Shown one piece after another: positions 84 through 7,817 of a stretch of 64,000 bases of DNA (position 1 is the first letter of the stretch; each line of letters opens with the position of its first letter). The stretch lies in assembly GCF_031127815.1 (NCBI RefSeq), contig NZ_JARXHY010000004.1, forward strand, positions 1 to 64,000. Direction: 5' to 3'. This DNA is from Pelagicoccus sp. SDUM812003. GTDB lineage: Bacteria; Verrucomicrobiota; Verrucomicrobiia; Opitutales; Opitutaceae. The notes under the pieces were generated by a model that made no database searches, was not told where the DNA came from, and worked only from the letters and a program-made list of their open reading frames with translations. The position numbers and the translations under genes are program-made.

Positions 84-156
84 GTCGAACGTGAAGTCCA
101 TACGCGTAGGTCAGCGCGGAGCGCTGGCCGAAGTTGTATGGGACGACTGGATGGAC
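84..156 (-). repeat. attC recombination site 1
   Basis: Integron attC site of 73 bp, read on the minus strand. The outer boxes are R'' GTCCATC and R' GTTCGAC. The inner arms CCATAC/GTATGG and the central hairpin CAGCGC-GGA-GCGCTG are shared with the other twelve sites. Its R'' box departs from the usual RYYYAAC. It encodes the end of the 111-458 gene (tail IQSSHTTSASAPR, stop TGA). Confidence 0.9.
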
Positions 157-458
157 CAGTTTTCTCTGGGGTTCATGGTTGGGATTCCTGTGAGCAGGAT
201 CTTGTCGATTTTAGCTAGCTCGTCGAGTCTTCGCACATGAGTCTTTCTCTTCAGTTGGCGCAGGGTCGGGCTGGATATTCGAAGCCTCCAGTGCAGGAGT
301 TCTGTCTCTATTCTGATTACTTCGTAGTGGCGTTGGAAGATTTCTGGAAGGATTCCGTGTAAAGGGGCTTTGATGGTCGAACTTAGACCTTTCGTATCAG
401 GATTTTGGGGATTTCTAGATTCGATTCCATTCGTTAGTTCAAACAGTCGATTTTTCAA
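111..458 (-). CDS. Hypothetical cassette protein (115 aa)
   Basis: No family recognised; basic, soluble, with no signal peptide or membrane segment. The reading frame enters the attC in the same frame as six other cassettes and ends with the attC-coded tail QSSHTTSASAPR, which supports that it is translated. The listed start is TTG at 456-458. Alternatively translation may begin at the ATG made by the cassette's own recombination box (GATGGAC, ATG at 521-523), which opens a 22-codon frame that stops next to this TTG; that would imply a frameshift or coupled translation. A CCCC-TTC-GGGG hairpin lies at about 468-478 between the two starts. Confidence 0.55.
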   Translation of the reverse strand: MKNRLFELTNGIESRNPQNPDTKGLSSTIKAPLHGILPEIFQRHYEVIRIETELLHWRLRISSPTLRQLKRKTHVRRLDELAKIDKILLTGIPTMNPRENWSIQSSHTTSASAPR

Positions 459-517: not shown

Positions 518-590
518 GTCCATCGTGAAAGCCATACGCGTAGGTCAGCGCGGAGCGCTGGCCGGAGTTGTATGGGCTGACTGGTTGAGC
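518..590 (-). repeat. attC recombination site 2
   Basis: 73-bp attC; minus strand R'' GCTCAAC and R' GATGGAC. The R' box lacks the canonical GTT, yet is exactly complementary to the R'' box at the other end of the same cassette (site 1). Central hairpin CAGCGC-GGA-GCGCTG. It supplies the last 13 codons and TGA stop of the 545-1480 gene. Confidence 0.9.
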
Positions 591-1480
591 TCATCTTTCT
601 TTATGAATTTCTGGAAGTCTTTCAGATAGGAATGCTTGGGAATCCAGTTCGCGTCCTTCACGATCAGACTGCTGTCAACTGGCTGACTGGCGAAGGATAC
701 TTCTAGATCTTCTCTTGATTGTATCTTGCTCAGCTCTTCGCGTGACTTTCGAGAAACCGGTCTATTCAGTGCTTGACCAATAGAGTCGAAGAACTCGACC
801 ACGGAAACCGCTCTTGGCTCAGCGATGCAGTAGACGGGACCACTCAAGCACCTCTCGATTATCGATAGGTAAGCTGTTGCTAGGTCGCATCTCTCGACCA
901 CCGACCAAAGAACTCTTTCGTCATCTATAGACACCAAATCGTTCTGGTACGCACTCCTCAAAATGCCCTGAAAAGGTCCGACTGATCCGTAAACGATACT
1001 TGGCAGGCAGAGCTGAACCCAAGGATAGGAACTCTCTCTGAGATACTCCAGAATGGGTATTCTAGGCTTAGCGTAGTCGAGTGGGGCTAAAGGGCTCTCC
1101 TCGCTGATAACGCTGGATCCGGACTGACTCCCGTAGACCCAGACTCCGCTCGTGTATATCAAACGCTTCGTGCGAGCCGAATAAACCGCTTCGATATTCT
1201 TGATGTGGTCGATCCCGAAATCGTCCATGTCCTCCGCATTGTATCGGGGTTGGGCGCAATCCACGATGTAGTCGAATTCGATTTTAGGAAGATCGTTGAC
1301 GAGGCTGGAAGCGTGAAGATCAATGCAATGCGAGAAAACACCTTTGATGTCGCTCGTGCTTCGTCTGGATACTGAATGAACTTCGAACTTCCCGCTCTCG
1401 GCGAAAACCTCCGCGACAGCGCTTCCAACGGTTCCTGAACCTCCAAGTATTAGGATCCTATGCTTTTCGCGGGTATTCAT
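545..1480 (-). CDS. NAD-dependent epimerase/dehydratase-like protein
   Basis: Extended short-chain dehydrogenase fold of 311 aa. The N-terminal Rossmann motif GGSGTVGSAV (residues about 12-21) binds the dinucleotide, followed by the family's typical DYIVDCAQ and YTSGVWVYG stretches. A clear YxxxK pair is not obvious where expected, so the catalytic activity is uncertain. The start ATG at 1478-1480 is 15 nt from the recombination point. The last 13 residues, NQSAHTTPASAPR, are encoded by attC site 2 and are not part of the SDR fold. The substrate is unknown; nucleotide-sugar epimerase or reductase relatives are the closest. Confidence 0.8.
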   Translation of the reverse strand: MNTREKHRILILGGSGTVGSAVAEVFAESGKFEVHSVSRRSTSDIKGVFSHCIDLHASSLVNDLPKIEFDYIVDCAQPRYNAEDMDDFGIDHIKNIEAVYSARTKRLIYTSGVWVYGSQSGSSVISEESPLAPLDYAKPRIPILEYLRESSYPWVQLCLPSIVYGSVGPFQGILRSAYQNDLVSIDDERVLWSVVERCDLATAYLSIIERCLSGPVYCIAEPRAVSVVEFFDSIGQALNRPVSRKSREELSKIQSREDLEVSFASQPVDSSLIVKDANWIPKHSYLKDFQKFIKKDELNQSAHTTPASAPR

Positions 1481-1488
1481 TCTTTTCT

Positions 1489-1561
1489 GCTCAACGTGAA
1501 AGCCATAGGCGTAGGTCAGCGCGGAGCGCTGGCCGAAGTTCTATGGGCTGACTGGTTGGAG
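1489..1561 (-). repeat. attC recombination site 3, with compensated stop-creating change
   Basis: 73-bp attC; R'' CTCCAAC and R' GTTGAGC. Unlike the other sites, the inner arms read CCATAG (1503-1508) and CTATGG (1541-1546) instead of CCATAC and GTATGG. The two changes restore base pairing. The same change makes the TAG stop codon of the 1541-1981 gene. Confidence 0.9.
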
Positions 1562-1981
1562 TTGTTTTTTCAATTCGTTGATCCGATCACTAGCTTCATC
1601 GTAGTTGAGATCTTCTTCCACGTATGTTCCGTCTTTGAGCTGGAGCACATATCGTACTCTTTTTTCCTCTGAACCAGCACCGTACTTGAAGCTGTGCTGA
1701 TTTGGGAAACTAATGCTTCCATCTTTTAGCTTTTCAACTTGCTCGGAACTAAAACAGACGTCGCTTTTACTATTTATAACATCAACCGCCCAACCTCGAA
1801 GTATGAGTTGGTCCGTTGTGTCCTTGGATGACAAAATTGCTATAGCCTGCTGAACCAACATCGAATCGACATCTTTGCTCTTCAGTGCTGCGTTCACCCA
1901 CGAAGTCACAACAAGCACTACAACGGGCAGGATTAGAATCTGTAGCCAAGATTGGATTTTTTCTTCTGTTTCCTTCTTCAT
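1541..1981 (-). CDS. Hypothetical membrane-anchored cassette protein (146 aa)
   Basis: Unrecognised family. After a short charged start (KKETEEKIQ) there is one hydrophobic segment at about residues 14-32 (LQILILPVVVLVVTSWVNAAL), then a soluble charged domain, so it is likely anchored in the inner membrane by its N-terminus. It enters the attC in the frame that normally has no stop; a TAG unique to attC site 3 ends it after QPVSP. The start ATG is 12 nt from the recombination point. Confidence 0.7.
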   Translation of the reverse strand: MKKETEEKIQSWLQILILPVVVLVVTSWVNAALKSKDVDSMLVQQAIAILSSKDTTDQLILRGWAVDVINSKSDVCFSSEQVEKLKDGSISFPNQHSFKYGAGSEEKRVRYVLQLKDGTYVEEDLNYDEASDRINELKKQLQPVSP

Positions 1982-1986
1982 TATTT

Positions 1987-2059
1987 CTCCAACGTGAAGG
2001 TCATACGCGGAGGTCAGCGCGGAGCGCTGGCCGGAGTTGTATGGACCGACTGGTTCGTC
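1987..2059 (-). repeat. attC recombination site 4
   Basis: 73-bp attC; minus strand R'' GACGAAC and R' GTTGGAG; inner arms partly changed (TCATAC/GTATGGA) and central hairpin CAGCGC-GGA-GCGCTG. It encodes the NQSVHTTPASAPR tail and stop of the GNAT gene. Confidence 0.9.
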
Positions 2060-2573: not shown

Positions 2574-2646
2574 GACGAACGTGAAAGCCATACGCGGAAG
2601 TCAGCGCGGAGCGCTGGCTGGAGTTGTATGGGCTGACTGGTTAGCA
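2574..2646 (-). repeat. attC recombination site 5
   Basis: 73-bp attC; R'' TGCTAAC and R' GTTCGTC. The central stem carries a paired change relative to most sites (AGTCAGCGC...GCGCTGGCT instead of GGTCAGCGC...GCGCTGGCC), i.e. covariation that preserves the hairpin. Confidence 0.9.
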
Positions 2647-3149
2647 TTGAGTTTTAGTGAAGCGAGGATCTCTTCCACTATTCGTGTTAACTCTTTTTTT
2701 CCTCGAAATCTAATATTCAGATTCTTCGTCCCAGCTAGGACGTAATAGTCGATCGTGAATATCTCTTTTTCGTCAATGTTGGTGAAGTCTTTCACAACCT
2801 CAAAACCTTCGAATTCACCACAAGTTGTTTGTTGGGGCTCTGGAATGTCAGCTAAATCCCATCCCGATTGGAGTAAAGTGTGCCTGCTTTTTTCAACCCA
2901 GAATCTGTACCAATTCTCGAAAGAGGGGTCATCCCAGCGAGACATATCTGGAACCACTAGGGATAGCTTCGCTTCATCATTCTCACCGCCTATCTGAACG
3001 ATGTATGCTTCAAGGTTCGTTTCAGGGTATATAAGAACCTTGGCGGTGAACTCATCAGGGATCTCAAATTTGATTGTACTGCCAACTATTTCTTTAGCCT
3101 GAGTGTGAGTGGCCAGAATTAGGATGCATGTGGCGAGTATTCGTTTCAT
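2601..3149 (-). CDS. Hypothetical exported cassette protein (182 aa)
   Basis: The start is placed at the ATG at 3147-3149, 12 nt from the recombination point, because it opens a clean signal peptide (MKRILATCILILATHTQA, cleavage after TQA). An upstream in-frame start would lie inside the attC. The mature part is an acidic soluble domain with KLSLVVPDMSRW and a C-terminal helix; family not recognised. A periplasmic or secreted location is likely. It ends with the attC-coded NQSAHTTPASAPR. Confidence 0.72.
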   Translation of the reverse strand: MKRILATCILILATHTQAKEIVGSTIKFEIPDEFTAKVLIYPETNLEAYIVQIGGENDEAKLSLVVPDMSRWDDPSFENWYRFWVEKSRHTLLQSGWDLADIPEPQQTTCGEFEGFEVVKDFTNIDEKEIFTIDYYVLAGTKNLNIRFRGKKELTRIVEEILASLKLNANQSAHTTPASAPR

Positions 3150-3154
3150 ATTCT

Positions 3155-3227
3155 TGCTAACGTGAAAGCCATACGCGGAGGTCATCGCGGAGCGATGGCC
3201 GGAGTTGTATGGGCTGACTGGTTCGAA
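3155..3227 (-). repeat. attC recombination site 6
   Basis: 73-bp attC; R'' TTCGAAC and R' GTTAGCA. The central hairpin is CATCGC-GGA-GCGATG, a compensated change at one base pair relative to CAGCGC/GCGCTG. The stop TGA of the incoming gene is preserved (now CGA TGA). Confidence 0.9.
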
Positions 3228-3640
3228 TTCTTTTCTTTAAGATAGTTCTCTGCTTTCGCTTCTAACAATTCTCTCATTTCAGTATCCGAGATCGGAAAGT
3301 GCGGGCTCATATCCTCAAATAGGATGAATAACTTCTTCACAGCATTAGGATCAATCAGAACTATCGGCTTTCCCGTAAATTCAACTGATTCATCCTCAAA
3401 TGTTATCTGAATTGGTTCTTCTCTATTTATCCTTACCGATATTTGCTCAAGTAGCTCTGAATTGCCTAAAACCAATATTACATGAGAAAATATTTCATGT
3501 TCTTCGGCGAAGTTCGCCTGTGCAGCGAAATGAGTGCCGGAGATTTCAAACTCGTGACTCCACAGGCTCCACATAGAAAGTGTCATGGTGTAGCCCGATT
3601 GCAAAAGAAGGAGTAGGGACGTTAGTGTCCAAATTTTCAT
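3182..3640 (-). CDS. Hypothetical exported cassette protein (152 aa)
   Basis: Hydrophobic N-terminus (MKIWTLTSLLLLLQSGYTM) consistent with a signal peptide or anchor, followed by a domain rich in acidic and beta-prone residues (ISGTHFAAQANFAEEHEI; QISVRINREEPIQITFEDE). No family recognised. The start is 11 nt from the recombination point. It ends in the attC-coded tail NQSAHTTPAIAPR, where the S-to-I change follows the hairpin covariation of site 6. Confidence 0.7.
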   Translation of the reverse strand: MKIWTLTSLLLLLQSGYTMTLSMWSLWSHEFEISGTHFAAQANFAEEHEIFSHVILVLGNSELLEQISVRINREEPIQITFEDESVEFTGKPIVLIDPNAVKKLFILFEDMSPHFPISDTEMRELLEAKAENYLKEKNSNQSAHTTPAIAPR

Positions 3641-3644
3641 TTTC

Positions 3645-3717
3645 TTCGAACGTGAAGTCCATACGCGCAGGTCAGCGCGGAGCGCTGGCCGGAGTTGTAT
3701 GGGACGACTGGTTCTCC
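3645..3717 (-). repeat. attC recombination site 7
   Basis: 73-bp attC; R'' GGAGAAC and R' GTTCGAA; inner arms CCATAC/GTATGG and central hairpin CAGCGC-GGA-GCGCTG. It supplies the NQSSHTTPASAPR tail of the 3672-4238 gene. Confidence 0.9.
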
Positions 3718-4238
3718 CTTCTTTTGTTTGTGCCCATCATTCGGGAAATAGCTGATCTTTTAGCTGCAAGCACCAAGCCAGCGACCACCATGATCGTGCT
3801 GTGCAAAGCGAATGGGCCGTGGACTGAAAACTGGTCGTCGACTGAAGTGCTAGAAGCCGTCGTCTTGACCCAACGAAATCCAGATTCTAAAAATCCAGGT
3901 AGGTTGCTTACTAGAATGTAAACGCCGATCAGTCCGATTCCGACAGATAGCAGCGCCTGTGCATCAATCCTTCCTTCGAAAATTATCGTGCTATTCTCCT
4001 TGAAAAGCAGATTCGATATCTTGCTGGCTGAAAAACAGAGCAGAAGTCCCAAGAGGGCCTGAGTCACTAGACTGATAGTGATGATTTGCAGGAATGCTGA
4101 ACCGTTCTCAGAGTCGTAGCTCATCATGGCGAATCCCTGTGACAGTAGGTAGCCCTGTGAAACTTGGAAAATCACCAAGTAGATGAAGAGTATTCCGATG
4201 ATTCGGAGCAGGACTGTTGAGAGAGCTCTTTGATTCAT
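3672..4238 (-). CDS. Hypothetical four-helix membrane cassette protein (188 aa)
   Basis: Four hydrophobic segments at roughly residues 8-35, 48-70, 88-112 and 142-160 suggest a polytopic inner-membrane protein with a soluble loop of about 30 residues before the last helix. The C-terminus is basic (KRSAISRMMGTNKRR) and is followed by the attC-coded NQSSHTTPASAPR. No family recognised. The start ATG is 19 nt from the recombination point. Confidence 0.7.
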   Translation of the reverse strand: MNQRALSTVLLRIIGILFIYLVIFQVSQGYLLSQGFAMMSYDSENGSAFLQIITISLVTQALLGLLLCFSASKISNLLFKENSTIIFEGRIDAQALLSVGIGLIGVYILVSNLPGFLESGFRWVKTTASSTSVDDQFSVHGPFALHSTIMVVAGLVLAAKRSAISRMMGTNKRRENQSSHTTPASAPR

Positions 4239-4250
4239 TGTCTATTTTTT

Positions 4251-4323
4251 GGAGAACGTGAAAGCCATACGCGGAAGTCAGCGCGGAGCGCTGGCTGGAG
4301 TTGTATGGGCTGACTGGTTAGGA
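4251..4323 (-). repeat. attC recombination site 8
   Basis: 73-bp attC; R'' TCCTAAC and R' GTTCTCC. It has the same covariant stem as site 5 (AGTCAGCGC...GCGCTGGCT). The TAA inside R'' is the stop codon of the 4318-4995 gene. Confidence 0.9.
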
Positions 4324-4995
4324 TTCTTTTTCATTGATGTAGTCTACTGTTTCTTCTCCGACATAGACGAAATGTTCATAATTGTCACTCTTGTGAAGCT
4401 GGAAGAATAGGTAAGGTATCGTTATGAGCAATACAACGTATTGGGGGGTGATCCATGTCGTGCTCCACAGCGAGCAAATCGTTGAATGTTCCAAAAAGAG
4501 AGTTATGGAGACGAGTGAGGATACCAAAAACTTAAGAACACATACCTGGTATTCTTCTCTTATTTTACGTTCATTCTCAATTAGCTTTTCATGCAGTATC
4601 TTGTTATCGTTTTGGGACAGGTAGTGACTCAGTTTGTAGTTTGGAATACTGTGTCTCTTGAGGTCGTCTAGTACTTCCCTTCTGATCTTAGAAAGGCCGG
4701 TCTTGTGAAGAATCCATGTAACAGGCCAATTCGTAATGATGAACGCCCAGAAATACAGCTTTCGACAGAAAAGAAGGAGTAAGGCATATAAAAGGACAAA
4801 TATGATTAATGCTCCCACAGGAACGCTGGAGTCGAGCGTTTCCAGTGTCAGTGATAGTAGGCTAGATTTCGCATATGACGATGCGGCAATGTCGCTGGAT
4901 ACAACAAATGTAGCAAACTGCAAAACATACCTACGGTCAAATATATGATCGACTCTGGGGAGGAGTGAATTGGCCAAATTGGTGGAGTAGCTCAT
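4318..4995 (-). CDS. Hypothetical membrane cassette protein (225 aa)
   Basis: A first hydrophobic stretch lies near residues 25-35, then about 57-90 (VGALIIFVLLYALLLLF and AFIITNWPVTWIL), and two more at about 150-170 and 182-200. An amphipathic, charged segment (KIRREVLDDLKRHS to ENERKIREEYQ) lies between the pairs. Probably an inner-membrane protein with a cytoplasmic loop; family not recognised. It stops at the TAA formed by the TCCTAAC box at the edge of attC site 8. Confidence 0.7.
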   Translation of the reverse strand: MSYSTNLANSLLPRVDHIFDRRYVLQFATFVVSSDIAASSYAKSSLLSLTLETLDSSVPVGALIIFVLLYALLLLFCRKLYFWAFIITNWPVTWILHKTGLSKIRREVLDDLKRHSIPNYKLSHYLSQNDNKILHEKLIENERKIREEYQVCVLKFLVSSLVSITLFLEHSTICSLWSTTWITPQYVVLLITIPYLFFQLHKSDNYEHFVYVGEETVDYINEKES

Positions 4996-5005
4996 TTTCT
5001 ATTCT

Positions 5006-5078
5006 TCCTAACGCTGAGGTGTCACGCGGAGGTAAGCGCGGAGCGCTTACCGGAGTTGTGACGACCGTTTTGTTGGCA
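5006..5078 (-). repeat. attC recombination site 9 (diverged)
   Basis: 73-bp attC; R'' TGCCAAC and R' GTTAGGA. More diverged than most: inner arms GTCAC/GTGAC, central hairpin TAAGCGC-GGA-GCGCTTA (compensated change). The change removes the TGA normally found in the hairpin, but the gene of this cassette already ends at 5116, before the site. Confidence 0.88.
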
Positions 5079-5115: not shown

Positions 5116-5982
5116 TTAGAGCTTCTTTGATACCTCCCAAATGGATGTGTCATCCTTTATGTCTGCAGACTTATTGTCGATTCTATCTTTCTCGATTATT
5201 TTGATCGTCTCCTTTGGGTTCAGCATTACGAAAATCGATCGACGAGCACTGCTTCCAGTATGGATTCCAAATATTCTTCCTTTGTTGTCTATAGCTGCAG
5301 ATCCACTATCACCTGGTAGAGTGGGGATTGTAGAAGGAGTCTCATGAAATTCGTACCCATCATAGATTTTCTTTCCGTAGATGAAAGAAAGATCGTAATA
5401 GCCTGCCCCTGTCTCGTTAAGTCTACCGCCAGAGAATATTGTTTCTCTTTTATTAATCGGTTCTTCTCTTAGATCGAGGCACTCTTTAGGCCCTTTGAAG
5501 GGAGCCTTTATTATGGCAAAATCAGCCTTTTTGTTTGAAAACACAGTACGAACGCTCGAAATCGAGAATCTCTCTATAGTCTTTTGATTTGGTATATCGA
5601 CTATTTCTTCCACGAAAACTATCCATACTTTTTTCTCGTCTACCACATGGTTTGCTGTCAAAAAATACCCATCTTCAGACACCAAAGCGGCCGAGCCCCA
5701 TTCGAGGGCTGATTCAGTTTCTACGGTTACATGGAATCCACCATTACCATCAGGGGCTATTGTTGGTCTCGGAGGTTTCGTATGGCCTCCTATCGTGATC
5801 GCATTGAATTTTCGCAAATAGGCTCTCGGTGAGAGTTGTGTCTTTTCTCCAAGGCGCACACTTTCGAGTTCTCTGTCAATCAGAGTAACATTCGAGGACA
5901 GCATCGACATTTTCTGATCGTTGAGGTCGTAAGTCTTGCAGCTTGAAAGCAGCACTAGGGATAGAAGCAATATTGTTCTCAT
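5116..5982 (-). CDS. Trypsin-like serine protease lipoprotein
   Basis: 288 aa. The start at 5980-5982 opens a lipoprotein signal (MRTILLLSLVLLSSCKTYD, lipobox LSSC), so the protein should be lipidated and envelope-attached. It has a chymotrypsin/trypsin-fold triad: His in TANHVV, Asp in KKADFAIIK, and Ser in LPGDSGSAA followed by IFGIHTG. Such proteases cut envelope or secreted proteins; the substrate is unknown. The gene ends about 40 nt before attC site 9, so it has no attC-coded tail. The start is 13 nt from the recombination point. Confidence 0.85.
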   Translation of the reverse strand: MRTILLLSLVLLSSCKTYDLNDQKMSMLSSNVTLIDRELESVRLGEKTQLSPRAYLRKFNAITIGGHTKPPRPTIAPDGNGGFHVTVETESALEWGSAALVSEDGYFLTANHVVDEKKVWIVFVEEIVDIPNQKTIERFSISSVRTVFSNKKADFAIIKAPFKGPKECLDLREEPINKRETIFSGGRLNETGAGYYDLSFIYGKKIYDGYEFHETPSTIPTLPGDSGSAAIDNKGRIFGIHTGSSARRSIFVMLNPKETIKIIEKDRIDNKSADIKDDTSIWEVSKKL

Positions 5983-5988
5983 TTTTTC

Positions 5989-6063
5989 TGCCAACGTGAA
6001 AGCCATACGCGGAAGTCAGTCGCGGAGCGACTGGCTGGAGTTGTATGGGACGACTGGTTCTAA
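5989..6063 (-). repeat. attC recombination site 10 (75 bp, extra hairpin pair)
   Basis: R'' TTAGAAC and R' GTTGGCA. The central hairpin is CAGTCGC-GGA-GCGACTG (6017-6033), one base pair longer than in the other sites, giving 75 bp. The added pair shifts the frame so that the TGA at 6016-6018 ends the 6016-6648 gene. Confidence 0.9.
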
Positions 6064-6648
6064 CTCATTATTTTTATTTTTTACTATTCGAAAGCCTCTT
6101 AGAATGACATCTGTACCCGAAATGATCTTAATTGCTTTTGAATTTATCTTTGAGATCTTTGGCGTTTCATAGCCTCCGAATCTATCGTCATTTGTGACTC
6201 TGAGGATTTCTCCCTCAATTTCTCCTGATCGAATTGCTTCTTTTATTTTGGTATCTGCATCATCAAGAAGCTCAATGTATTTTGAATTGGATATTCTGAT
6301 CTTTCCAACAATGTAACCTTGATAGTCGGGTCTTTTGTCTTTGTTCAGTGTGGAGAAGAAAAGCAATCCATCAGGTCCGGTTCGAAGGCGACTAAAATTC
6401 CCTTCCGAGTCATCTTCGTAGTATCGACCGTTGTGATTGATGACTAAGAACGCTCCATCCTCTTTGTCTAAAAGGCGGTATTCTAACAAGAGGATTGGAG
6501 TCTCGGAATCCATCGTTTGGAACGCCCAAAGTCCGTTGATGAAATCCATCGTGTCAGAACTTGGTATCGCGTCTCCCACTTTCTCTGGGAAGATAGTCCC
6601 ACCGTACAAGTTGGTGGAGATGAAGAGTAGGAAGATTAGCTTTACCAT
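6016..6648 (-). CDS. Hypothetical exported cassette protein (210 aa)
   Basis: The start is placed at the ATG at 6646-6648, 14 nt from the recombination point; it opens a signal peptide (MVKLIFLLFISTNLYGG). Longer in-frame starts lie in the neighbouring cassette. The mature protein has beta-rich segments (LLLEYRLLDKEDGAFLVINH; GYIVGKIRISNSKYIELL), perhaps a periplasmic or secreted domain. No family recognised. It reads into attC in the frame that usually has no stop and is terminated after VVPYNSSQSLRD thanks to the extra base pair in site 10. Confidence 0.72.
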   Translation of the reverse strand: MVKLIFLLFISTNLYGGTIFPEKVGDAIPSSDTMDFINGLWAFQTMDSETPILLLEYRLLDKEDGAFLVINHNGRYYEDDSEGNFSRLRTGPDGLLFFSTLNKDKRPDYQGYIVGKIRISNSKYIELLDDADTKIKEAIRSGEIEGEILRVTNDDRFGGYETPKISKINSKAIKIISGTDVILRGFRIVKNKNNELEPVVPYNSSQSLRD

Positions 6649-6655
6649 TATATTT

Positions 6656-6722
6656 TTAGAACGTCGAGTCCTCACGCGGAGGGGGCGCAGCCCCCGGAGT
6701 TGTGAGCGACGACTTGATATGT
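6656..6722 (-). repeat. attC recombination site 11 (diverged, 67 bp)
   Basis: R'' ACATATC and R' GTTCTAA. The shortest and most diverged site: inner arms CTCAC/GTGAG, central hairpin GGGGGC-GCA-GCCCCC. The R'' box lacks the canonical AAC but is complementary to the R' box of site 12 at the other end of the same cassette, which supports the boundary. Confidence 0.85.
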
Positions 6723-6794: not shown

Positions 6795-7055
6795 TCAAGA
6801 CTCTTTGCTTTCGGTTGATTCTCTTTCGAAATAGTCCTTATATTTTTTGCTGTTCATCTTTTCAGTTAAGAACTCGTGTATTGTTGGTGTAATCCTGAAA
6901 GTGACCGATCCTAGTAAAAGGATCGTTCGTAGCTCTAGGCTTACTCGTAGATGTATGCTGAAAATGCTTAGAATGAGTTGTGTGGTGACCAACAATATGA
7001 AGGCCACAGCGAGCAACGTACTGATGTATTTTGAGATATTGTATGTCGTTTTCAT
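6795..7055 (-). CDS. Small membrane cassette protein (86 aa)
   Basis: The start at 7053-7055 (MKTTYNISKYISTLL) is preferred over an upstream GTG at 7074-7076 that lies in the recombination box. Two hydrophobic segments at about residues 12-33 and 42-57 are followed by a charged C-terminus (KMNSKKYKDYFERES). Probably a two-helix inner-membrane protein. No family recognised. It stops about 70 nt before attC site 11, so it carries no shared tail. The distance from recombination point to start is 26 nt, the longest in the array. Confidence 0.6.
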   Translation of the reverse strand: MKTTYNISKYISTLLAVAFILLVTTQLILSIFSIHLRVSLELRTILLLGSVTFRITPTIHEFLTEKMNSKKYKDYFERESTESKES

Positions 7056-7074
7056 GTTGGATTCTTTATTTTTC

Positions 7075-7147
7075 ACATATCGTCGAGGTGATACGCGAGG
7101 ATCAGCGCGGAGCGCTGACCGCAGTTGTATCGACCGCCTGGTTGGGC
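7075..7147 (-). repeat. attC recombination site 12
   Basis: 73-bp attC; R'' GCCCAAC and R' GATATGT, the second site whose R' lacks GTT. Inner arms GATAC/GTATC; hairpin CAGCGC-GGA-GCGCTG. It encodes the variant tail NQAVDTTAVSAPR of the thioredoxin-like gene. Confidence 0.88.
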
Positions 7148-7734
7148 TCTTTGTTTTCTATTTGTTTATATTCTCGGTTCGCTATCTGTTCTATCGATCC
7201 GATCAATTTCTTATCGATATCAAATTTCCCACCTATTGCGGCAATAGCGAGGTTCCAATCTTGGTCGATTATAAAGTGCGTGGGTAATGACGATACGCCA
7301 TTTGCTGAAATCAAATCTACGACCTCCATCCCCATCTTGCACACAGGCATTCTCATTTCATTGTTTTTTAGATACTGATTTAGCCTGACCTCCGTATCGA
7401 AGCAGTTGATGGATAGTATGACGACATCGGGGTCGTCTGAGAAGTAGGTGAATGCCGTGTTTAATTCTGGCATTTCTTTTAGGCAGGGTCCGCAGCCGGT
7501 GGACCAGAAATTAAGGTATACAACCTTTCCCGTCAGAGTTTCCGAGTTCCATCGTTTTCCGTTCGTGTCTATCAAATCAATTTCCGGGAATGTTGACCCG
7601 ATTCTTGGAGCGAATGAATCGTGCGATTCGAGGGAAAACTTCAAAATCGTGGCATCGGTGGTTGTTTGTGCCTGGGTCGCCGTTGCAAACGCGAGGAATG
7701 TCAAAAGCAGAGGGATCTGGAGTGTTTTATTCAT
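7102..7734 (-). CDS. TlpA-like periplasmic thioredoxin
   Basis: 210 aa. It has a signal peptide (about residues 1-22, ending ATQAQ), then a TlpA/ResA-type domain: FPEIDLIDTNGKRWNSETLTGKVVYLNFWSTGCGPC-type core with the redox motif CGPC near residue 81, then KEMPELN and the cis-Pro region SSLPTHFIIDQ. Such proteins reduce disulphides in periplasmic proteins such as cytochrome c apoproteins. It ends with the attC-coded tail NQAVDTTAVSAPR. The start ATG is 17 nt from the recombination point. Confidence 0.88.
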   Translation of the reverse strand: MNKTLQIPLLLTFLAFATATQAQTTTDATILKFSLESHDSFAPRIGSTFPEIDLIDTNGKRWNSETLTGKVVYLNFWSTGCGPCLKEMPELNTAFTYFSDDPDVVILSINCFDTEVRLNQYLKNNEMRMPVCKMGMEVVDLISANGVSSLPTHFIIDQDWNLAIAAIGGKFDIDKKLIGSIEQIANREYKQIENKEPNQAVDTTAVSAPR

Positions 7735-7744
7735 TAGTTTCTTT

Positions 7745-7817
7745 GCCCAACGTGAAAGCCATACGCGTAGGTCAGCGCGGAGCGCTGGCCGGAGTTGTAT
7801 GGGCTGACTGGTTAAGT
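7745..7817 (-). repeat. attC recombination site 13 (first in the array)
   Basis: 73-bp attC with consensus arms; R'' ACTTAAC and R' GTTGGGC. The TAA within R'' is the stop codon of the 7812-8204 gene. It closes the cassette nearest the attI-like end. Confidence 0.9.

Follow-up and report, generated by a model that had tools for sequence, protein, structure and literature searches.

Part of an integron cassette array, with its genes on the minus strand, occupies the first 8 kb of the 64,000-nucleotide stretch of Pelagicoccus DNA analysed here (the window). One attC site of this array, site 3, reads CCATAG/CTATGG where the usual site reads CCATAC/GTATGG, so that both arms differ from those of the neighbouring sites with pairing kept; in the sense of the gene it is CATAG...CTATG, the majority of its neighbours being CATAC...GTATG. 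The resident gene ends within this L box, which raises the question of whether the site was altered to suit its gene, whether the two met by accident, or whether site 3 is one case of a wider relationship between attC sites and reading frames. Integrase is known to recognise attC by its fold and not by its sequence, the site being defined by AAC and GTT cores and by L'' and L' repeats (PMC2727003). A sequence-only reading of this DNA had proposed that site 3 alone carries a paired mutation which keeps the fold and creates the stop codon that its gene needs. The analysis partly supports this interpretation: the kind of explanation was correct, but it was drawn too narrowly and claimed too much about cause, site 3 being one rare instance of a fit between attC hairpins and reading frames that extends across the genus. 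The features of the array are listed in Table 1.

Table 1. Sites and genes of the cassette array in the window, by position (L-box and hairpin types as described in the text).
Feature	Position	Strand	Remarks
attC, short hairpin	84..156	-	ORF 111-458 enters in frame A, TGA at +39
attC, short hairpin	518..590	-	gene 545-1480 enters in frame A, TGA at +39
Gene of the cassette next to site 3	545..1480	-	NAD-dependent epimerase family, 311 aa
attC site 3	1489..1561	-	short hairpin, L-box CATAG/CTATG; R'' side at 1561, R' side at 1489
Cores of site 3	1555-1557 and 1493-1495		AAC core and GTT core, respectively
L' arm of site 3	1503..1508	-	compensating change; CTATGG on the minus strand, CCATAG by direct reading of the plus strand
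L'' arm of site 3	1541..1546	-	CCATAG, with the TAG stop of the resident gene at 1541-1543; CTATGG by direct reading of the plus strand
Resident cassette gene of site 3	1541..1981	-	146 aa, ends in QPVSP and the stop
attC, short hairpin	1987..2059	-	gene 2014-2565 (GNAT acetyltransferase), frame A, TGA at +39
attC, short hairpin	2574..2646	-	gene 2601-3149, frame A, TGA at +39
attC, short hairpin	3155..3227	-	gene 3182-3640, frame A, TGA at +39
attC, short hairpin	3645..3717	-	gene 3672-4238, frame A, TGA at +39
attC, short hairpin	4251..4323	-	gene 4318-4995, frame C, stops at the R'' core TAA (-1); cassette outside the counted set
attC, GTCAC L box	5006..5078	-	gene 5116-6006 ends 44 nt ahead of attC
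attC, hairpin one base pair longer (AGTCGC..GCGACT)	5989..6063	-	TGA at +41 closes frame C
Gene	6016..6648	-	enters the long-hairpin attC in frame C, ends at its TGA
attC, L-box type CTCAC	6656..6722	-	gene 6795-7076 stops ahead of attC
attC, GATAC L box	7075..7147	-	gene 7102-7734 (thioredoxin-like), frame A, TGA at +39
attC, short hairpin	7745..7817	-	rightmost site detected in the window array

Positions within a site are numbered from the AAC of the R'' core, which is 0. Frame A has this AAC as a codon, frame B begins one base later and frame C two bases later (CCA GTC AGC CCA TAS). The flip of the innermost L-box pair turns the frame-C codon at +14 into TAG, and the gene of site 3 enters in frame C and ends at this codon, as the sequence-only reading had stated. 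The frame is indeed one that the common site leaves open: of 166 unflipped sites of short-hairpin length, 141 close frame A and no other, and frame C is closed in 7. The claim that the fold is kept also holds, as the bottom strand of site 3, folded with DNA parameters, takes up an attC-like hairpin in which one base of the L'' arm is unpaired; its energy is -13.8 kcal/mol, against -13.0 kcal/mol with one arm reverted to the consensus base and -14.5 kcal/mol with both reverted. The same procedure gave the neighbouring sites 2 and 4 a minimum-energy structure other than the attC fold. The cores of site 3, ..CCAAC at R'' and GTTGAGC at R', agree with RYYYAAC and GTTRRRY. The resident protein has no match in Pfam. 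If its TAG were read as sense, the frame would stay open for 331 more codons, through the start and the body of the next gene, so that without this stop the two neighbouring cassette genes would be fused in frame. We consider it probable that site 3 is an ordinary integron attC that would also act as the translation end of its gene. The window holds a second frame-C case besides site 3, the gene that ends in the long-hairpin attC.

AttC-like sites were catalogued from parts of the window's genome (G000), from stretches of seven congeners (G001-G007) and from a few other genomes; the stretches were selected because they surround matches to a single attC pattern, and so do not sample integrons at random. 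The 464 sites yielded 372 usable cassettes (143 from G000 and 229 from the congeners), after removal of 6 sites with L-box words judged false, 60 that were first in their locus, 20 with too long a cassette, one with too short a cassette and 5 duplicates, and the cassettes yielded 276 clear genes, 120 of them in G000. Generic attC finders were dropped because they recovered too little of the window array (a single hit, or 9 sites). The detector retained for the catalogue in effect demands a fully paired L box, and the attC with the GTCAC L box in Table 1 escaped it, as did further sites; the count of L-box pairs was redone on 217 sites found with no pairing condition, and in 207 of these the L box is perfectly paired. 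The start of the cassette is complementary to its own R'' at 6 of 6 bases in 318 of 378 cases, compared with 17 of 378 for a control pairing. G000 carries an integron integrase (TIGR02249, 381 bits for a cut-off of 265; G000:C8:230860-231783) on a contig that also carries attC sites (C8:233102-239218); the window array runs to the end of its contig, and the assembly holds no link between it and the integrase contig. A second integron-integrase match above the cut-off, with one in-frame TGA, lies at G000:C1:338137-339066.

Other features of these arrays were noted. A second class of attC sites, with 82-86 nt between the L arms and often CGGGCCAAGCGCCCGAGTTGTGG..., is found in the same arrays (for example L002, L004, L005, L006 and L010), and it often closes several frames together. 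The R' core has a second dialect, GAT for GTT, seen in the window at 518-590 (GATGGAC) and 7075-7147 (GATATGT); over the catalogue the triplet is GTT in 405 of the 464 sites and GAT in 52, and the cassette that follows a GAT site ends in ATC and not AAC in 41 of 45 cases, so that cassette start and end remain complementary. There is also a recurrent cassette family whose copies end in GTCCAT (window 84-458, L004, L007, L009 and L010); the longest ORF ends 64 to 138 nt ahead of the attC in four of the five copies, and the gene may therefore be degenerate or misread.

In the eight genomes of the genus, 115 of the 276 clear genes reach the attC core without a stop of their own, and 112 of these 115 stop inside the attC. 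When the sites were shuffled among the 115 cassettes (20000 trials), 67 genes on average and 86 at most were closed. The same result is obtained with one cassette per gene family (102 of 105 closed; shuffled mean 60, maximum 78), in the window's own genome (50 of 51; mean 31, maximum 42) and in its relatives (56 of 58; mean 33, maximum 45), and with another detector all 8 of the genes running into attC in the window array are closed. A stop of its own is absent from 112 of the 156 clear genes whose frame is closed by the attC, versus 3 of the 120 whose frame is not (127 of 207 versus 7 of 165 over all 372 rows, unclear ORFs included); the other 44 of the 156 nonetheless keep their own stop. 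Sites share ancestry, and p values here and below thus overstate independence. These observations suggest, we think with good reason for confidence, that attC acts as the terminator of its gene, and that variants which keep the fold go with other reading frames.

Three genes run into an attC that does not close them. The first, in the window's genome (L013 x=1782), enters a short unflipped site in frame C and is not closed until +116, which lies in the next cassette. The second, in the sister species G002 (L065 x=2137, contig C8, minus strand), enters a long-hairpin site in frame A and runs to +321: because frame and hairpin type do not fit, it reads through a complete attC into a VapB-like antitoxin gene (Pfam PF09957), giving one frame of 286 aa. 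The third, in G006 (L072 x=2453), stops at +60, just beyond R'. These exceptions indicate that an attC stop is not absolutely required, and that its failure gives the expected run-on. In the third case, the TGA and the ATG of the cassette that follows seem to overlap (ATGA). Outside the genus, the other detector was applied to three genera (G012, G019 and G020), five further genomes with fewer than four validated cassettes being left out; an own stop is absent from 14 of 28 genes in closed frames versus 0 of 7 in open frames, which agrees with the rule in direction but is weak, the numbers being small. In the largest of these sets, G020, 11 of 11 genes are closed compared with 10.1 expected from the shuffle, which has no power there because G020 sites close frames very widely.

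Genes were assigned by ORF length alone, and 96 of the 372 cassettes have no clear ORF, so one may ask whether the longest open frame was taken for a gene and runs into attC by chance. This may have happened in the case of L006 x=5875, which was given a frame-C ORF whose protein looks non-coding. Nevertheless, ORF length was measured only up to the attC, so that a stop inside the site cannot sway the choice of gene; two of three homologous pairs have mostly synonymous differences (synonymous to nonsynonymous 41/7 and 5/0, and 40/26 in the third); and the window array gave the same result with a different detector. We therefore regard a gene-calling artefact as most unlikely, the least probable of the explanations considered in this work.

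The way in which a site closes its gene depends on the length of its hairpin. In the short hairpin, AGCGCTCCGCGCTGACC (or ATCGCTCCGCGATGACC), frame A is closed by a TGA at +39. In the long one (AGTCGC..GCGACT, or AAGCGC..GCGCTT) an additional base pair puts the stop at +41 and thereby in frame C. Of the clear genes running into short sites, 60 are in frame A, 1 in frame B and 1 in frame C; of those running into long sites, 1 is in frame A and 16 are in frame C (Fisher 1.7e-14). Over all rows the numbers are A65 B2 C1 versus A1 C17, one of the 17 being the doubtful ORF L006 x=5875, whose codon at +41 is CGG. Long and flipped sites taken together are used as terminators more often than short ones (19 of 24 versus 61 of 131 clear genes, p=0.004; 19 of 25 versus 66 of 160 over all rows, p=0.002, L006 x=5875 not being counted as a user). 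Some related genes are informative: three related proteins (L002 x=9925, L013 x=633 and L008 x=6743) end alike in frame C at three types of attC, whose frame-C stops are TAG at +41, TGA at +41 and TGA at +50, respectively, and in the related pair L063 x=2111 and L005 x=3351 one gene has frame A with a short hairpin and the other frame C with a long one. A third relative of this pair (G003 L129 x=4068) stops ahead of its attC and is thus uninformative on the frame match.

Since the same encoded tail (NQSAHTTPASAPR and similar) ends many cassette proteins of different families, the feature under selection might be the tail itself, as a functional C-terminal tag, and not the stop. Against this idea, the tails of frame-C genes are of quite another kind (EPGSPYNSGQSLRD, or QPVSP alone), and what all the genes have in common is only the stop. 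A selected tag is in our opinion very improbable.

The flip of site 3 is rare. The innermost L-box pair is C-G in 366, G-C in 4 and T-A in 2 of the 372 cassettes, as counted with a detector that in effect demands pairing, and C-G in 207, C-A in 5, G-C in 4 and T-A in 1 of the 217 sites found with no such requirement. In these 217 sites a gene-side G never occurs without a C opposite, both arms being changed in all four flips. The G-C sites are site 3 itself, two more from its own genome (contig C32) and one from G002, so that the earlier statement that site 3 alone has the variant is correct for the window and incorrect for the genome. Searching 57 genomes of the genus, family and order for the pattern recovered the four known sites and a single further match, in G014, where the letters matched bear no resemblance to this hairpin. 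The 19 matches in a collection of named genomes, from which the window's genome is perhaps excluded, were rejected, as none has attC arms or cores.

All four flipped sites lie under frame-C genes, three of which end at the TAG and the fourth at a TAA at -1. Of the 276 unflipped sites whose L box belongs to the same class (NATAC or NATAT), 91 are under frame-C genes (p=0.013); the corresponding figures are 4 of 4 versus 69 of 207 for clear genes only (p=0.014) and 3 of 3 versus 20 of 103 for genes running in (p=0.009). The enrichment of the paired variant in frame-C cassettes that the sequence-only reading led one to expect is thus present, and the variant was not found under genes of another frame. 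The word "needed", as applied to the stop, has to be qualified. The TAG of site 3 is used, and the common site would leave its frame open; however, the fourth flipped cassette has its TAA upstream, the frame-C gene of L013 lives with an unflipped short site, and with a sense codon at +14 the frames at the other three flipped sites would stay open for 70, 17 and 17 codons, so that in two of them closure would come only 17 codons later anyway. Compared with the 331 codons of site 3, these values indicate that the cost of losing the TAG depends on the neighbour.

The origin of the flip is a separate matter. No BLAST match links any two of the four flipped-site genes; three of their proteins, searched in the 57 genomes, matched only themselves, and the fourth has no match within the 372-cassette set. 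The sites, for their part, are only 0 to 4 bases apart over 59 and have a C-to-T change in common (a derived core, TTC plus the flip), which suggests that they are probably of one lineage. Two of them are identical over all 59 bases, and are found in two species with unrelated genes; the flip is then probably older than some of its gene pairings. Identical 59-base cores on unrelated genes in two species (L005 x=8853 and L066 x=887) are a sign that attC lineages change genes. The counts given above are an association, not four independent inventions.

These properties bear on two explanations of site 3. According to the first, the two-arm change arose in place, after the gene had lost its stop, and was selected for supplying one, perhaps in one step of template switching. 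It would account for the position of all four flips under frame-C genes, for the absence of a one-armed G among the 217 sites and for the more frequent use of the rare variants as terminators. The derived core common to the four sites and the two identical cores make the variant probably older than some of its gene pairings, one of the four flips is superfluous, and the gene of site 3 has no homologue in the 56 relatives searched by which the events could be ordered. We consider adaptation in place to be unlikely, and the idea that the flip originated as the stop of this gene agrees with the frame association but is weakened by the probable age of the lineage. According to the second explanation, the flip is a neutral attC lineage that happens to lie under four frame-C genes, only the general stop rule being real. 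There are indeed only four flipped sites, they are not independent, and the TAG of one is unused; nevertheless, frame and site type in general match very strongly, and the flip falls under that match. Coincidence appears to us somewhat unlikely, if less so than adaptation in place. The explanation that we prefer, and hold to be probably correct, is that attC closes stopless genes and that its variants fit their frames.

This explanation can be put as a mechanism. Many cassette genes of the genus would have lost, or never had, their own stop, and would be translated into attC. Loss of the stop would be tolerated almost only where the attC closes the frame, as otherwise the protein would run into the following cassette. 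The common short hairpin closes frame A by the TGA in its 3' arm; an extra base pair closes frame C by moving this TGA from +39 to +41, and the rare L-box flip from C-G to G-C closes the same frame by turning TAC into TAG at +14. We propose that paired changes are of little cost to recombination, because it is the folded strand that the integrase reads, and that they give the coding strand a stop. The sequence, the pairing and the match of frame are observed directly; from them we infer that translation proceeds up to the attC stops, that purifying selection acts against run-on and that the integrase tolerates the variants.

Two processes could produce such a fit. In the first, attC would act as a filter, genes being free to lose their stop only where the site closes the frame; in the second, an attC variant would spread by closing the frame of a stopless gene. 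The commonest attC core, present in 38 of the 372 cassettes, speaks for the filter: with the site held constant, the 14 genes running in are all in frame A, and the 24 stopping earlier are distributed as A3, B13 and C8. The higher use of long and flipped sites as terminators is in favour of adaptation, an argument weakened by shared ancestry, and the excess of frame A in cassettes with short sites (A 85, B 36 and C 39 over all rows) can result from either process. The paired change itself may have been made in one step, by template switching across the hairpin. A more ambitious version, which we put forward tentatively and would not call probable, is that attC hairpins and cassette frames co-evolve as a double code, with the fold on one strand and termination on the other, paired changes, perhaps single template-switch events, adapting the site to the frame of the gene.

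To our knowledge it is not settled how new integron cassettes gain their attC site. If there is a fit by frame between genes and attC sites, each junction would record the phase in which the two were joined, and the rule could be tested in any large array. If hairpin and frame do co-evolve, new pairings of gene and attC would survive or fail by frame, leaving a trace of cassette making. In either case the arrays would offer a natural example of one sequence held to a DNA fold and a reading frame together.

The annotation of cassette genes is also affected. At least 15 nt of overlap with their own attC are found for 112 of the 276 clear genes, the commonest overlaps being 46 and 48 nt (66 and 16 of the 112). 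According to the passages concerned, work on Vibrio arrays trimmed or left out ORFs that reached 15 bp or more into a site (PMC1382264), and ORF and site may overlap by at most 15 bp in ACID (PMC2674596), rules that conflict with these 112 genes; the limit of 50 nt allowed in a metagenome survey (PMC7370490) would pass the commonest overlaps.

In the description of integron attC sites (59-base elements) given in PMC2727003, the cores, the L''/L' inverted repeats, the unmatched L'' base and the terminal hairpin are the same as here; the present sites differ in that, in most frame-fitting cassettes, the resident gene also takes its stop from them, with variants going with the frame. Among the matches listed in a literature search that covered few subscription journals, none had a title or an abstract opening that connects attC variants with the reading frame of the gene they accompany. 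PMC12444791, PMC8618304, PMC9024848 and PMC8352920 likewise yielded no passage about stops inside attC. Fused cassettes of the GES-1/aacA4 type, as they are presented in PMC4670013 and PMC8876359, have lost part or all of an attC; like the G002 exception they join two cassette genes, but the latter keeps a complete attC. The attC stem-loop is described as hindering ribosomes on their way to the next cassette (Jacquier et al., 2009, as described in PMC8876359). In both situations the attC meets the ribosome as mRNA, but it is the downstream cassette that is hindered in that account, whereas for the present arrays we predict that ribosomes translate the upstream gene into the hairpin. A further parallel is ORF-11 of attI1, which takes its stop from the cassette inserted there, namely from the GTTRRRY core (PMC8876359): there too the cassette side of a recombination site completes an open frame with a stop. 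As it is described, ORF-11 is a short leader peptide with its stop in the R' core, whereas in the arrays studied here whole genes would end at stops inside the attC hairpin.
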